This document shows, in pieces, positions 52,269 to 58,073 of a DNA stretch of 64,000 bases (the first letter of the stretch is position 1; each line of letters starts with the position of its first letter). Below the pieces are notes generated by a model. The model was not told the origin of the DNA and ran no database searches. It saw only the letters and a program-made list of their open reading frames with translations. Both the position numbers and the translations under genes were made by a program. Source of the stretch: an uncultured Granulosicoccus sp. (GTDB lineage Bacteria; Pseudomonadota; Gammaproteobacteria; Granulosicoccales; Granulosicoccaceae). Location of the stretch: contig CALKLO010000031.1 of assembly GCA_937991945.1 (NCBI GenBank), positions 62,001 through 126,000 on the forward strand. Direction: 5' to 3'.

Positions 52269-53300
52269 CTAGCCGCCGATGAAGGACATTTCGACTTTGG
52301 GTCTGATCACTGATACTTGTGTTCGGGTTTCGGAGTAGCGGTCGCCTCTGACAGACCACAGCTTACTCAAGGCATCGCGTACGGCATTGATATCGCCACT
52401 TCGAAGCGCTGGGCGCATGTCGTGGCCGCCGGATGCAAATAGGCATGTGTAAATACTGCCTGTGGCACTCAGGCGAGCTCGACTGCAGTCACCACAGAAG
52501 GGATCTGATACTGATGAAATAATACCGATCTCGCCACCACCGTCTAGGAACTCCCAACGCTTGGCAACCTCACCCCGATAGTTAGCTTTTACAGGAGCTA
52601 TGGGTAATTCACTGTTGATCAGATCAGCTATTTCTTGACTGGTCGTAACGTGGGAAAGATTCCAAGCATTGCTGTTACCCACATCCATAAACTCTATAAA
52701 ACGAAGAATTTGTCCCGTGCCATGGAAAAAGCGCGCCATGGGTAATATGGAGTGATCGTTAAGACCCTTTTTAACTACCATATTCACTTTAACGGATTCA
52801 AAGTTAGCATCAGCCGCATGCTGAATACCATCCAATACCGTTTGGACGGTGACATCGACATCATTGACTCGCATAAACGTTTCATCGTCCATGGCATCAA
52901 GACTTACGTTTAAACGCTGAAGCCCTGCATCTCGCAGACTACGCGCACGATCTCTAGTGAGTAGAGAGGCGTTTGTTGTCATGCTGACATCAGTGATCCC
53001 TGGCACATTACGCACCTTAGAAATCAACTGCTCAAGATCGCGACGTACGAGTGGTTCACCACCGGTCAAACGAATCTTAGTAACACCCAACTCTGCAGAG
53101 GCTTGTACCATTCGTTCGATTTCTTCAAACGTCAGCAAGTCAGATTTGGGTAAGAATTTATAGTCTTTGTTGAAGACCGACTTAGGCATGCAATAGACAC
53201 AACGAAAGTTGCAACGGTCAGTCACTGACACACGCAAATCTTTTAAAGGTCGATCGAATCGATCACTGGCAGCTTGTATGGCCACATTAACACCCGTCAT
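52269..53300 (-). CDS. moaA: GTP 3',8-cyclase MoaA
   Basis: A 343-residue radical-SAM enzyme that makes the first pterin intermediate of molybdenum/tungsten cofactor synthesis. From the ATG at 53300 the radical-SAM cluster is C30-x3-C34-x2-C37 (TDRCNFRCVYCMP); the C-terminal cluster is in DPFCGDCSRARLSATGSIYTCLF, and the protein ends in the essential -GG (FIGG). The frame is open upstream, over the preceding gene, but this start fits the family. Last gene of the aldehyde oxidoreductase operon, following the unknown gene by 19 nt. Confidence 0.94.
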   Translation of the reverse strand: MTGVNVAIQAASDRFDRPLKDLRVSVTDRCNFRCVYCMPKSVFNKDYKFLPKSDLLTFEEIERMVQASAELGVTKIRLTGGEPLVRRDLEQLISKVRNVPGITDVSMTTNASLLTRDRARSLRDAGLQRLNVSLDAMDDETFMRVNDVDVTVQTVLDGIQHAADANFESVKVNMVVKKGLNDHSILPMARFFHGTGQILRFIEFMDVGNSNAWNLSHVTTSQEIADLINSELPIAPVKANYRGEVAKRWEFLDGGGEIGIISSVSDPFCGDCSRARLSATGSIYTCLFASGGHDMRPALRSGDINAVRDALSKLWSVRGDRYSETRTQVSVIRPKVEMSFIGG

Positions 53301-53319: not shown

Positions 53320-53616
53320 CTAACCACCCCCTCGTTGGAAGCGCAAATCGAAATGCACTTTAAAGGCTTGCTGTTGTTCTTCTGAAACCTCACTAAAATG
53401 AAATGAGACCTCCGAATAAGGTATGCACATCAAGGCAATACGTCTTTCTAATGTCGGCCCTAACGTGATTTTTAAAGAACCTGCATGTATCGTCGCGAGC
53501 ACGACATCACCCTGTACCTCGTAACGATGCTCGCCCATTGCCCGAGGCAGTATGCGCCAAAAATCACCGTGCGTTAAGCCCATTTCGCGGCTGTAAGAGA
53601 TGTCAGGATGACTCAT
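53320..53616 (-). CDS. Conserved small protein of the AOR operon, function unknown
   Basis: A 98-residue protein from the ATG at 53616, beginning 5 nt after the MoaD-like stop. I recognise no domain. It reads MSHPDISYSREMGLTHGDF, then WRILPRAMGEHRYEVQGDVV, then a beta-rich stretch ending LCIPYSEVSFHFSEVSEE and QAFKVHFDLRFQRGG. It has no signal peptide, no membrane segment, and lacks cysteines other than one. The C-terminal GGG tail is notable next to a MoaD-like protein that also ends in GG. Its setting between the MoaD-like and MoaA genes of the AOR operon suggests a role in cofactor assembly or insertion into the AOR. Confidence 0.65.
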   Translation of the reverse strand: MSHPDISYSREMGLTHGDFWRILPRAMGEHRYEVQGDVVLATIHAGSLKITLGPTLERRIALMCIPYSEVSFHFSEVSEEQQQAFKVHFDLRFQRGGG

Positions 53617-53621
53617 GGAAA

Positions 53622-53876
53622 CTAGCCACCTGCTACCGGCGGCCAAATTGCCAACACATCGTTTTCTTTTAAAATACCGCGATCGTCACGATCGGTATCA
53701 CAGTGGAATATTCCATTGACCAAGACGAGGTGCGCCAACTCACGCGGCACGCGGTAACGATCAATAATATCGTTTAAAGAGGCATCATTAGCAACCTCAA
53801 TAACCACAGCGTTTTTCACAGCATCTGCGGGCAGGAGATCTTGCAAGGTCGCGAAAAGTTTAAAGGTGATTTTCAT
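53622..53876 (-). CDS. MoaD-like sulfur-carrier protein
   Basis: An 84-residue ubiquitin-fold protein from the ATG at 53876, with AAGGA 6 nt upstream; an ATG at 53882 is too close to that site. It shows KITFKLFATLQDLLPADA, DIIDRYRVPRELAHLVLVNG and DVLAIWPPVAGG, the last with the C-terminal Gly-Gly that becomes a thiocarboxylate. It would carry sulfur for pyranopterin dithiolene formation. In this operon it should serve the tungsten cofactor of the AOR. Between the FAD-subunit gene and the unknown small gene. Confidence 0.9.
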   Translation of the reverse strand: MKITFKLFATLQDLLPADAVKNAVVIEVANDASLNDIIDRYRVPRELAHLVLVNGIFHCDTDRDDRGILKENDVLAIWPPVAGG

Positions 53877-53899
53877 CGTCATCCTTGAGAGTGAGCTCT

Positions 53900-55168
53900 C
53901 TAGGCTCCCAGATTAACGTGTTGTCGCTGAGCGCTGGCTAAGTAGGCCTCAGAAATACGGTTTGGTTCTTTTAATAATTTGTCTTTCCACTCGCCTAAAT
54001 GCGCACCGGTTTGAATCAGACCGCGCATGACACCCACATGTTGCGTCATTCCTAGGCTGCTCGCACCCACCAGCACATCATCTTTAAATTGAAGGTTCAA
54101 GTATTTAAAGTTTTCAATATCCGACATTTCAGCCTCTTCTCCACCCTCAACACCCATCCACATACCAAAGGAGGTAGATATAAGACCCACAGTATCCAGA
54201 ACGTTCATATTCACGTTTCCTGGGTGCGGTGTCTTGTGACCATGAGCCATATTTTGTGCAGCCAACTTACCGTGCTCTACAGCCGTAGGTTGTATAGCCT
54301 GGACGTAGTATTCACCTGTAGACAGATCACGACCTTGAGCCACATCCCCTGCCGCATAGACATCGGACGCGCTTGTCTGCATAAAGTCGTCAACCACAAT
54401 ACCCATATCTACTTGGATACCGCTGCCATCTAAAAAGGCGGTATTTGAACGAACACCCGTTGCACAGATAACAACATCAGCGGGCAAAGTCTCACCACCT
54501 TCAGTTATTACGCGTAACGAATCATCACCAGAGGCTTCTGCAATTTCAGATACCTTAGTGGAGGTTAAAACGTTAATGCCCTTAGCCACACACCAGTCTT
54601 TGATCATCGTGCCCATGACTTCGTTGGTCATACGAGACACCATACGGTTTTCCATTTCAATGACCGTCAGGTCGACACCTCTAGAGGCTAGGGCCTCCAA
54701 GATGATGCAACCGATAAAACCAGCCCCCATTAATATGACTTTGGAACCAGGTTCTGTGTCTGCGACGATCTTGTGCGCATCACGCAGCGACCAACAGTTA
54801 TGTACACCCTTGGAGTCTATTCCTGGAATAGGTGGACGAGTCGCTGTTGCACCAGAGGCAACGAGTAGCTTGTCATAATCGATTGTTTCACCACCGAGCA
54901 AGGTAATGCGTTTGGATTGAGTATCAACCGAACTGGCACGCCCTTGTTTTAAGGTAATACCCAAAGACTCAAAATGATTCTCGTTTTTTCGAAGGTAAGT
55001 CCCTTCTGCTGCAATGTTGCCCACTAAATAATACGGGAGTGCCATCCGCGAATAAGGAGGAACATCTTCTGCCACCAGCATAGTGATTTGCCCGCTCGGG
55101 TCATATTTACGCAGATGTTCCGCTGCATTTACACCCGCAGGACCCGCACCGATAATCACATAATGCAT
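53900..55168 (-). CDS. aorC: FAD/NAD(P)-dependent oxidoreductase subunit of AOR (AorC-like)
   Basis: A 422-residue flavoprotein from the ATG at 55168, with AGGAA 7-8 nt upstream; the frame begins with a TTG at 55174. N-terminal FAD site HYVIIGAGPAGVNAAEHLRK, the SRMALPYYLVGNI string, a second NAD(P) site KVILMGAGFIGCIILEALASRGVDLTVIE, and CATGVRSNTAFLD then DVYAAGDVAQGRD. It belongs to the NADH oxidase/nitrite reductase-like pyridine nucleotide-disulfide family. In the Aromatoleum AOR it is the third subunit and links the enzyme to NAD. Three hairpins lie between it and the AorB gene. Confidence 0.88.
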   Translation of the reverse strand: MHYVIIGAGPAGVNAAEHLRKYDPSGQITMLVAEDVPPYSRMALPYYLVGNIAAEGTYLRKNENHFESLGITLKQGRASSVDTQSKRITLLGGETIDYDKLLVASGATATRPPIPGIDSKGVHNCWSLRDAHKIVADTEPGSKVILMGAGFIGCIILEALASRGVDLTVIEMENRMVSRMTNEVMGTMIKDWCVAKGINVLTSTKVSEIAEASGDDSLRVITEGGETLPADVVICATGVRSNTAFLDGSGIQVDMGIVVDDFMQTSASDVYAAGDVAQGRDLSTGEYYVQAIQPTAVEHGKLAAQNMAHGHKTPHPGNVNMNVLDTVGLISTSFGMWMGVEGGEEAEMSDIENFKYLNLQFKDDVLVGASSLGMTQHVGVMRGLIQTGAHLGEWKDKLLKEPNRISEAYLASAQRQHVNLGA

Positions 55169-55200
55169 AGCCAATTCCTAAATACGTTGTTGTAAAACCG

Positions 55201-55338: not shown

Positions 55339-57195
55339 CTAACTGGGTAATGACCACTTCTGACGCGTCTCGTCAGTCATAGAACCATCGGCCGAGTAGC
55401 CCCGCAGCTGATAATACTCTGGAAGCATTTGACTTAACTCACTGGTGCGACCCTTTGCAGGACCTGAGTTTGCACCCTCGGTGAGGAGTCGAGCTGGCAA
55501 CGTATCGTCAGCACCGGTAATGCCGGCCTTCTGATTGAAATCTTTCTCAAGGTTCCAAATACGCTCGCCAACTTCCATCATGCGCTCTGTAGACCAATCG
55601 CCCTCGCAAGCAGCATCTACCTGAGGTGCGATGTCGTCCATGGTCCACGCAAACGTGGTGAAAACACAGAGACCCGCAGAATCCACAGCCGCTGTTGCAT
55701 CTTGAAACGCCTTAACCAGACCCGGCTTACCCGCAGACTCAAGAGGATCCGTTTTTTCAGGGATACCCAGAATTTCGGATGCAACGGTGTAGCCACGTAA
55801 ATGACATGCACCACGATTGGAGGTCGCGTAAGCCAGACCCATACCCTGAATGCCGCGTGGATCGTAAGCAGGAAACTCCTGACCTTTAACTGTCATGGAT
55901 AGCTCAGGCTTACCGTACTTTTCGCATAGTCGCTTGGACCCTAGGCCTAAGTCTGCGCCAAAGCCTTCACCTTTCGCAGTGACTTCAGCCGCCCAGCACA
56001 ACGCTTCAGCTGAACCAAACTTCAAGGCCATACCACCCGTATGCTCAGTGGTAATAACGCCTGTTTCAAACAGCTCCATGGCAGCTGCCACAGTAGAGCC
56101 GAAAGAGATAGGGTCCATGCCGTCTTCATTGCACAGGAAGTTGGCGTAAGTCAGCGCATCAATATCATCAACGCCTGTATCCGGACCCAACGCCCAAGCA
56201 GCTTCATATTCCAAGCCACCCGAATTAATCCAGTACTCAGGCTTATCTTTCACCGAGAAATGCGTGCGATCTATGGTGGAGATTCGGCCGCAAGCGATGG
56301 TGCAAGAGTAGCAAGCGCCGTTAGTGGTCAGATTGGCTTTGCCGTCTGACTTGCGAGGCAGATGCATAGCCTCACCACCGACATCATTAGCGCCCTCAAA
56401 CTGTGTTTGAGTCATGTTGCGAGTCGGCAGTGCACCTACCTCGTTAATAACATTCATGAGAACCTGAGTGCCATAAGTAGGCAAGCCTTGACCCGTAACC
56501 GCATTTTCGGCCAATACCTTCTTGCCATCTTTTACGGTTTGCATGAAACGCTTAGGATCGTCTATGCCACCTAGTCCCAACGTACCGCGACAAACCACGG
56601 CTTTTAAGTTCTTGGAAGCCATGACAGTACCTACGCCTGAACGTCCAGCCGCACGGTGCAGATCGTTAACCACTGCTGCGTACAAATTACCTTCCTCAGC
56701 AGAGCGTCCTACGCAAGCGATACGCACTTGTGGATCTTGGTGCTTTTGGCGAAGCGCGTGATCGGTTGCCCAGCATGACTGACCCCATAGATCGTCAGCA
56801 GGCATCAATTTAGCCACATCGTCCTCGATGTTTAGATACATGGGCGTGGCCGCCTTACCTTCAAATATGATCATGTCCCAGCCAGCAAACTTAAGCTCTG
56901 CACCAAAAAAGCCGCCAGAGTTAGAGCAAGCAACGGTTCCAGTTAAGGGGCTTTTGCAAACAACGGAGTAACGACCACCGGTGGATGCAATAGTGCCCGT
57001 CAGAGGACCCGTGGTCATGATGAGCTTGTTGTCAGGGCCTAAGGCATCGCATTGGGGGTCTATTTCATCGACCAAATAACGAGTGCCCAAGCCGCGCTGA
57101 CCTAAGTACTCATTAGCCCAATCCATGTTTAGAGCTTCCTCAACCACCGTGCCATTGGTTAAGTTAACGCGCAGTATTTTTCTAGTCCAACTCAT
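55339..57195 (-). CDS. aorB: Tungsten-type aldehyde:ferredoxin oxidoreductase large subunit (AorB-like)
   Basis: A 618-residue protein of the AOR family, which oxidises aldehydes to carboxylic acids using a bis-pyranopterin tungsten cofactor and one [4Fe-4S] cluster. N-terminal WTRKILRVNLTNGTVVEEALN is the AOR start, with the GRYSVVCKSPLTGTVACSNSGGFFG and FAGWDMIIFEGKA strings. Cluster ligands are C295, C298 and C302 (ACYSCTIACGR) and C510 (SAGLC). YDPRGIQGMGLAYATSNRGACHLRGY is the C-terminal pterin motif. The start has AAGGAGAC upstream and is 11 nt after the ferredoxin gene. The length matches the Aromatoleum type. Confidence 0.93.
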   Translation of the reverse strand: MSWTRKILRVNLTNGTVVEEALNMDWANEYLGQRGLGTRYLVDEIDPQCDALGPDNKLIMTTGPLTGTIASTGGRYSVVCKSPLTGTVACSNSGGFFGAELKFAGWDMIIFEGKAATPMYLNIEDDVAKLMPADDLWGQSCWATDHALRQKHQDPQVRIACVGRSAEEGNLYAAVVNDLHRAAGRSGVGTVMASKNLKAVVCRGTLGLGGIDDPKRFMQTVKDGKKVLAENAVTGQGLPTYGTQVLMNVINEVGALPTRNMTQTQFEGANDVGGEAMHLPRKSDGKANLTTNGACYSCTIACGRISTIDRTHFSVKDKPEYWINSGGLEYEAAWALGPDTGVDDIDALTYANFLCNEDGMDPISFGSTVAAAMELFETGVITTEHTGGMALKFGSAEALCWAAEVTAKGEGFGADLGLGSKRLCEKYGKPELSMTVKGQEFPAYDPRGIQGMGLAYATSNRGACHLRGYTVASEILGIPEKTDPLESAGKPGLVKAFQDATAAVDSAGLCVFTTFAWTMDDIAPQVDAACEGDWSTERMMEVGERIWNLEKDFNQKAGITGADDTLPARLLTEGANSGPAKGRTSELSQMLPEYYQLRGYSADGSMTDETRQKWSLPS

Positions 57196-57206
57196 AATTC
57201 GTCTCC

Positions 57207-57680
57207 TTAGGCGCCAGCCGCGTTGTCAGTCTTGGCAGCCCAGGCACGCATCTTATCCAGACCGGTTGCATTCGCATCGACGTAGGTGATGGCTTGTGTA
57301 GGGCAAGCCTCGACACACTCAGGATCACCACCGCATAGATCGCACTTGACGACCTTGCCTGTGGACGTGTTGTAGTTGATGGTGCCGAATGGGCAGGCGA
57401 TGGTGCAAACCTTACAACCTACACACACATCACTGAGGACGTCTTTAGAACCATTAACAGGGTTGAGAACGATGGCATCAACAGGACAGGCCTGCATACA
57501 CCATGCTTCGTCACATTGAGTACAGGTATAAGGCACAAATCGGCCTTCGTCGTGGAAAGTGAAGACCTTGATCCGTGATTTAGACGGATTAACCATGCCT
57601 TCGTTGACCAGCGAGCACGCCGACTCACACTGCAGACACCCGGTGCACTTGCCCGGATCTATGTGCAGGGATTTCTGCAT
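57207..57680 (-). CDS. aorA: Polyferredoxin subunit of AOR (AorA-like)
   Basis: A 157-residue iron-sulfur protein from the ATG at 57680, with GAGGAG upstream. Four [4Fe-4S] motifs: C12-C15-C18-C22 (CTGCLQCESAC), C53-C56-C61-C65 (CTQCDEAWCMQACP), C86-C89-C92-C96 (CVGCKVCTIACP) and C113-C116-C122-C126 (CDLCGGDPECVEACP). No signal or membrane segment, so it works in the cytoplasm. It should pass electrons between the AOR large subunit and the FAD subunit. First gene of the operon 57680 to 52269. Confidence 0.93.
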   Translation of the reverse strand: MQKSLHIDPGKCTGCLQCESACSLVNEGMVNPSKSRIKVFTFHDEGRFVPYTCTQCDEAWCMQACPVDAIVLNPVNGSKDVLSDVCVGCKVCTIACPFGTINYNTSTGKVVKCDLCGGDPECVEACPTQAITYVDANATGLDKMRAWAAKTDNAAGA

Positions 57681-57781
57681 TCGTCTCTCTCCTCTAGTAA
57701 TTGAGTAGTGGGTGAAGTAGCCCAACATGCAAATAGTGGCTGAGTACAGCTAACCGAGCTATGGGCAATGGGTACCAATAC

Positions 57782-57869: not shown

Positions 57870-58073
57870 TTATTCAGACGGCTTTCTTTTGATCACTGCA
57901 TACACAGAAATACCTATAAAAAGCGCTAGCGAGGGCAGGAGAATGTAATCCAGCCACCCCAATACCGCCGACAGGCCCATAGCGGTGAGTAGCACAACAA
58001 GAATGGGGGTAAAACAACACAGCGCTGAAATGACCGTACCCACCAGGCCTGTTGTTAGTAGTTTTTTATTCAT
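57870..58073 (-). CDS. merF: MerF-like mercury transport protein
   Basis: A 67-residue membrane protein with two helices: LLTTGLVGTVISALCCFTPILVVLLTAMGLSAV and WLDYILLPSLALFIGISVYAV. The vicinal Cys pair in the first helix (ALCCFTP) is the mercury-binding motif of MerF. MerF normally carries a second Cys pair in the loop, which I do not see, so metal transfer may differ. No merA, merP, merR or merT is nearby. Other small-metal cargo is possible. Confidence 0.75.
   Translation of the reverse strand: MNKKLLTTGLVGTVISALCCFTPILVVLLTAMGLSAVLGWLDYILLPSLALFIGISVYAVIKRKPSE

Follow-up and report, generated by a model that had tools for sequence, protein, structure and literature searches.

To our knowledge, tungsten enzymes of the AOR family have no firmly established chaperone or delivery factor. 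These enzymes are of interest for the reduction of carboxylic acids with H2 (accessible part of PMC9295118). The closest described system is the AOR operon of Aromatoleum aromaticum, aorABCDE, in which aorD and aorE have been termed putative maturation factors resembling MoaD (accessible sections of PMC6365974) and in which AorE of strain EbN1 is WP_041646407 (PMC10413684). AOR purified from A. aromaticum consists of AorA, AorB, and AorC, with the AorD and AorE products absent according to the authors in those same sections of PMC6365974. MoaD genes linked to AOR, including those of Thermus, were described by Iyer in 2006, in passages that make no mention of the protein reported here (PMC1779556, accessible passages). 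WOR genes are likewise accompanied by WorX, a small ThiS-like protein thought to be active in pterin processing, which is the only such protein named in the available parts of a 2026 WOR survey, and those parts do not describe our protein (PMC13328260).

Recombinant expression provides the published evidence on function. Table 1 of PMC9295118, the part of that paper used here, always has aorD and aorE together and gives added tungstate for aorABCDE only; it lists 4.5 U/mg for aorABC, 16 for aorABCDE, 85 for aorABCDE with tungstate, and 23.6 for native AOR, with W contents per enzyme of 1.06, 0.39, 1.52, and 1.46, respectively. Native AOR, like aorABC, was low in phosphorus (5.12) in that source. 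Dividing these single values gives activities per W of 4.2 for aorABC, 41 for aorABCDE, 56 with tungstate, and 16 for native enzyme. Since activity per W rises with aorDE, each W seems to count for more in their presence, which points to cofactor quality rather than metal amount; better W loading by aorDE is unsupported by the first pair, because without added tungstate aorABCDE contained less W per enzyme (0.39) than aorABC (1.06).

The fifth gene of the aor operon

The window analyzed here is a stretch of 64,000 nucleotides from an uncultured Granulosicoccus sp., and it carries an operon in the order aorA-aorB-aorC-aorD (MoaD-like)-X-moaA, where X denotes the gene under study and its product (Table 1). 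The first-pass annotation had described X as an unknown protein of 98 residues, ending in GGG and lodged 5 nt after a MoaD-like gene whose product ends in GG and 19 nt before moaA, and these particulars proved correct, with X on the minus strand, which the annotation had left unstated. Translation starts from an ATG at 53616, which is 5 nt from the end of the AorD stop at 53622, and runs through 98 codons to a stop at 53322-53320, with the protein ending in FQRGGG; the likely ATG of moaA, at 53300, follows after 19 nt, and a longer alternative moaA frame has a GTG at 53393. An AGGTGG lies 9 nt upstream of the X ATG, and a scan for promoters and terminators gave no counts above those of shuffled sequence. 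X is present in a single copy in this genome. The frame is intact in homologues from two phyla and, relative to the closest homologue (L066), has a pN of 0.20 against a pS of 0.90, indicating that X is a real gene rather than a chance frame and, as judged from this sequence pair, that it is under strong purifying selection. Matches of AorD to MoaD-family models fell under the cut-offs of those models.

Table 1. Coordinates of the aor operon and its parts in the window
Feature	Coordinates	Strand	Basis
X (AorE-type), 98 aa, ending in RGGG	53320..53616	-	frame read; homologues; AlphaFold model
Codons for the invariant (R/K)GGG at the X C-terminus	53323..53334	-	GGG in 87/87 homologues, R or K before
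AorD, MoaD/ThiS-like, 86 aa, ends AGG	53622..53882	-	Pfam ThiS 23.4 bits (cut-off 22.5)
moaA, GTP 3',8-cyclase, likely start 53300	52269..53300	-	TIGR02666 367.6 bits (cut-off 284)
aorC, FAD/NAD(P)H oxidoreductase subunit	53900..55174	-	Pyr_redox_2; synteny
aorB, tungstopterin subunit	55339..57195	-	AFOR_N + AFOR_C
aorA, ferredoxin-like subunit, several 4Fe-4S motifs	57207..57728	-	Pfam scan

X very probably corresponds to AorE. A profile of X found matches in 16 of the 17 genomes of the genus to which A. toluclasticum belongs, and 12 neighborhoods drawn from those 16 each held one MoaD-like gene and one X. The genome that we take to be that of A. aromaticum EbN1 (G276, locus L162) has the order A-B-C-D-X, with an X homologue ending in MQRGGG as fifth gene; it is from this position, together with the Aromatoleum homologues as a whole, that the sequence-based assignment derives. 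Published AorE thus shares with X its place as the fifth aor gene, directly behind the MoaD-like aorD, but it was described as MoaD-like, whereas neither X nor its Aromatoleum homologue is predicted to have a MoaD fold. The label "unknown" therefore holds with respect to Pfam and NCBIfam, which have no model for the family, and falls away in that X corresponds to a protein that already has a name.

Two further features of this genome were observed. Directly upstream of the aor operon, at 57870-58073 on the minus strand, lies a gene for a MerF-like mercury transport protein (Pfam, 70.5 bits). A second AOR-type cluster, on contig C131 (L064, 7246-9765), has AorA, an AorB with 54% identity, and a MoaD-like gene, without AorC and without X.

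Distribution of X and its association with AorB

X reached the cut-off of no model in Pfam or NCBIfam, and a single-protein search of Pfam, NCBIfam, and PDB sequences gave no useful match; the phmmer match to PDB 5bke (E 0.0049) covers just the final 51 residues. A well-described unrelated family that would account for X was thus not found in these databases. We surveyed 274 genomes of the class with a profile of 26 homologues (alignment A1, from which the truncated L036 and L040 were excluded), dropping before counting one match (G153/L049; E 0.009) that lay within a 680-codon frame and lacked X features. X was present in 33 of the 274 genomes, with internal stop codons in 2 of them, and is cut short in 2 of the 31 genomes counted as intact (G093 and G131). 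AorB of the window type (at least 66% identity) was present in 36 genomes of the class, including all 31 with intact X (Fisher test, 4.9e-36; 2.5e-33 with the two broken copies counted against the association). A phylum survey of 398 genomes, which overlaps the class survey in some genomes (e.g., G000 and G107), found X in 7 and AorB of the window type in 8, with AorB in 7/7 X genomes (Fisher test, 2.7e-14). A search of viral contigs and plasmids for X found none.

AorB without X occurs in five genomes of the class; in four of them the contig stops within the cluster, and in the fifth, G254, it does not. As G254 (L050) and G334 (L176) have aorABCD without X, X is not absolutely required, and these genomes together with the related X-free clusters L102, L137, and L145 mean that it is dispensable or replaceable. 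Homologues in genomes without AorB, which might have spoken against an AOR-specific role, amounted to two decayed remnants in the congeneric G085 (L062, 7041-7315) and G209 (L063, 6896-7021), each followed by an intact moaA; the gene upstream of the broken copy in G085 reads by eye as a MoeB-type E1. From sequence, this pattern looks like co-loss of X and AorB. A second copy of X in G008 (L057, 5357-5670) ends in KGLG and lies away from AOR genes, next to a gene that appears tautomerase-like by eye.

X was found in 64 of the best 80 of 589 AorB loci, and in 61 of those best 80 it lies within 400 nt downstream of AorD; it is farther from AorD in L077 and L103 and divergent in L094. The X loci span Acidobacteriota (Holophagaceae, L127 and L131) and Alphaproteobacteria. 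X was not seen in 16 of these 80 loci; in 10 of the 16 the sequence stops about 1 kb or less from AorB, and in the other 6 it does not (L067, L071, L102, L137, L144, and L145). The more distant AorB paralogues have no adjoining X, among them L064 (54% identity) and L137, L144, and L145 (57-61%). AorD frames end in GG in 67 of 68 cases, the L140 frame doing so only by way of its fused X, and AorD of L074 extends 16 residues beyond its VAGG. Two MoaD-like genes per operon were seen in L070 (10129-10927, with X between them), L043, L051, and L053. Detached or nearby X copies occur with TupBC-like tungstate transporter genes, in the order TupB-TupC-X in L035 and X-TupB-TupC in L094, and upstream of tupBC in L103 and L162; for the L035 and L103 permeases, TupB is the best of the metal-specific models, yet the scores are under the TupB cut-off.

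Collectively, co-occurrence and synteny strongly support the proposal of the first-pass annotation that X is a factor specific to these AORs, in keeping with the published co-expression of aorDE. A substitute for MoaE was considered as well, the window genome (G000) having no MoaE that we could find despite moaA, AorD, and two ThiF-family genes. This role was ruled out by the presence of MoaE in 53 of the 58 genomes searched; among X-bearing genomes it was found in 36 of 41, the other five being drafts in roughly 158 to 510 contigs. The missing MoaE of G000 is probably an assembly gap (158 contigs), as its congener G258 has MoaE.

Fold, glycine tail, and kinship with 1v8c

The AlphaFold model of X, built on a 62-row alignment, has a mean pLDDT of 91.1 and a pTM of 0.81, with elements in the order E-H-E-E-E-E-H and a loose tail; a second model, for the Aromatoleum homologue, agrees with it (90.5 and 0.79). 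Both match KA1, Bet v1-like, and other folds of the group called TBP-like, so that X is predicted to have a compact TBP/KA1-like fold. Structure prediction, one of the checks suggested at the outset, thus yielded a confident model and no MoaD-like fold. No MoaD-like chain is present among the 50 matches listed in either VIA list save 1v8c, which is there by its other domain; this absence carries no weight of its own. X as a remote homologue of MoaD was ruled out by this fold and by profile comparison with AorD (probability 0.5%).

The only structural match that makes biological sense is the C-terminal domain of 1v8c, a "MoaD related protein" of Thermus. Foldseek gave a probability of 0.99 for the window model and of 1.00 for the Aromatoleum model (TMq 0.65, 21% identity), and structural alignment gave Z 7.5 (3.2 A over 80 residues) for the former, where the mark of the tool is 8, and Z 9.0 (2.4 A over 77 residues, 18% identity) for the latter. 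Since middling Z values are common for TBP-like folds, sequence was used as a second line of support. A profile of X alone picked up the end of 1v8c with E 0.27, and a joint AorD-X profile matched residues 69-168 with E 0.0046; the score of 1v8c was reached by 0 of 4,000 shuffles that kept RGGG and 0 of 4,000 full shuffles. The 44-residue end of 1v8c had no match in plasmids. DUF1952 (PF09189), presumably the Pfam name of this C-terminal domain, matched 2 of 62 members (best E 0.026) without reaching its cut-off, and nothing in the window genome was over that cut-off. On the models, we consider X and the C-terminal domain of 1v8c to share a fold.

The junction of 1v8c reads LFPPVAGG-GFERTF and the chain ends in SRGGG, making it a natural MoaD-X fusion. 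A comparable frame of 180 codons lies in an alphaproteobacterial aor operon (L140, 10123-10665), where AorD, ending in PPVAGG, continues into an X ending in QKGGG; the case for this fusion depends on a single MAG contig, in which seven consecutive G lie at the junction. As 1v8c and L140 share the MoaD-X layout, MoaD and X, neighbors in operons, appear from their sequences to have become domain neighbors in fusions. In both, the GG of the MoaD domain is internal and the free tail is that of X.

That tail is sharply conserved. All 87 distinct X proteins end in GGG, with R before it in 70 and K in 17; outside this count stand the partial L069, L105, and L124 (also left out of alignment A3), the second copy of G008 (KGLG), and the broken copies of G085 and G209 (HSGGG and HRRGG). 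The ending is specific, because just 65 frames of at least 60 codons end in [RK]GGG in the 1.07 Mb of L066-L145. Other well-kept positions are M12, E/D18, F/W19, L23, R58, I60, A/G61, P66, V70, F74, F85, and F89. No Cys or His is conserved in the alignment, and 34 of its 88 rows have no Cys at all.

Possible roles of AorE

Our favored account, to which we give a probability of roughly 60%, identifies X with AorE and sees in it a maturation factor dedicated to AorABC-type AOR. X would bind AorD, the MoaD-like sulfur carrier of the operon, as its physical partner; the two may then build the pterin dithiolene for the tungsten cofactor or pass it to AorB, with X presumably mattering beyond AorD alone, and the GGG tail could act as a mobile arm that reaches into MoaE, an E1 enzyme, MoeA, or AorB. 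A partnership with AorD in the making or delivery of tungstopterin is favored because of the MoaD fusion, the linkage to tungstate transporters, the restriction to one AOR clade, and the aorDE activity data. Computed support consists of co-occurrence with AorB, adjacency to AorD, the MoaD fusion, the fold, the invariant free tail, and the Tup linkage of detached copies. Cofactor insertion, the first of two activities raised by the first-pass annotation, is a plausible role for X, the published data being for aorD and aorE jointly; the second, sulfur transfer, gained no support, as the predicted fold is not MoaD-like and no Cys is conserved.

Alternatively, X may be a client-specific chaperone of apo-AorB, of the kind represented by TorD/NarJ and XdhC in other Mo-enzyme families, that holds AorB open and checks cofactor insertion independently of AorD. 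The tracking of one AorB clade by X and its absence beside the distant paralogues (54% in L064; 57-61% in L137, L144, and L145) would suit such a protein, as would the rise from 4.2 to 41 U/mg per W with aorDE (division of values in Table 1, the accessible part of PMC9295118). However, a chaperone of this type leaves both the X-MoaD domain fusion and the invariant terminal GGG unexplained, and we regard it as somewhat unlikely. Another possibility is that X is itself a carrier whose C-terminal Gly is adenylated by an E1 of the MoeB/ThiF type and thiocarboxylated, providing a second donor of dithiolene sulfur beside AorD; the (R/K)GGG found in 87/87 proteins, the internal GG of MoaD and free X tail in both fusions, and the two ThiF-family genes of the window genome all fit. 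Yet E1 enzymes recognize beta-grasp partners, a fold that the models do not give X, and a protease could release the MoaD GG in fusions, as cited for Deinococcus MoaD-MoaE (accessible part of PMC9650054), so that this carrier seems quite unlikely. A related idea, unlikely in our estimation, is that X represents a second kind of glycine-tailed carrier off the ubiquitin fold, in which a TBP/KA1-like domain would present GGG as an activated or swinging arm in tungsten-cofactor sulfuration, with MoaD in trans or in cis.

The detached or semidetached copies beside tupB/tupC-like genes in L035, L094, L103, and L162 could also suggest that X handles tungstate, binding or sensing the metal and linking TupABC uptake to the enzyme, but the alignment holds no conserved Cys or His (34 of 88 rows being Cys-free) and most copies come after aorD rather than tup genes, making this very unlikely. 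Were X a structural subunit of AOR, the shared operon and strict co-occurrence would be explained; such a role is highly improbable given that purified A. aromaticum AOR is AorA, AorB, and AorC without AorD or AorE (accessible sections of PMC6365974).

Relative to known systems, then, X joins a family, AorE, that was already named but unplaced, and the AorD-partner reading can be set against three kinds of protein. In literature on AorE/AorD, on DUF1952/1v8c, and on tungsten cofactor with MoaD, most subscription papers being outside our reach, we found no account of the X family or its link to 1v8c. The present analysis places AorE in a family, assigns it a fold, points to 1v8c as a relative of solved structure and to AorD as its probable partner, and singles out one sharply conserved motif, which opens its role to simple gene removals. 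WorX is, like X, a small protein near tungsten oxidoreductase genes, but it is ThiS-like and hence the counterpart of AorD. MoaD/ThiS carriers share with X a free C-terminal Gly-Gly (GGG in X), whereas X has no Pfam ThiS match and its modeled E H E E E E H order is not the beta-grasp order (for MoaD, accessible part of PMC1949818); should the GGG tail be used chemically, a non-ubiquitin fold would then bear a carrier tail. The protein 1v8c of Thermus thermophilus differs from window X in having both parts in one chain and in its weak sequence similarity, and resembles it in its predicted common fold, in its terminal RGGG (within SRGGG in 1v8c), and in its position after a MoaD domain, which ends in PPVAGG in 1v8c, or after a MoaD-like gene.
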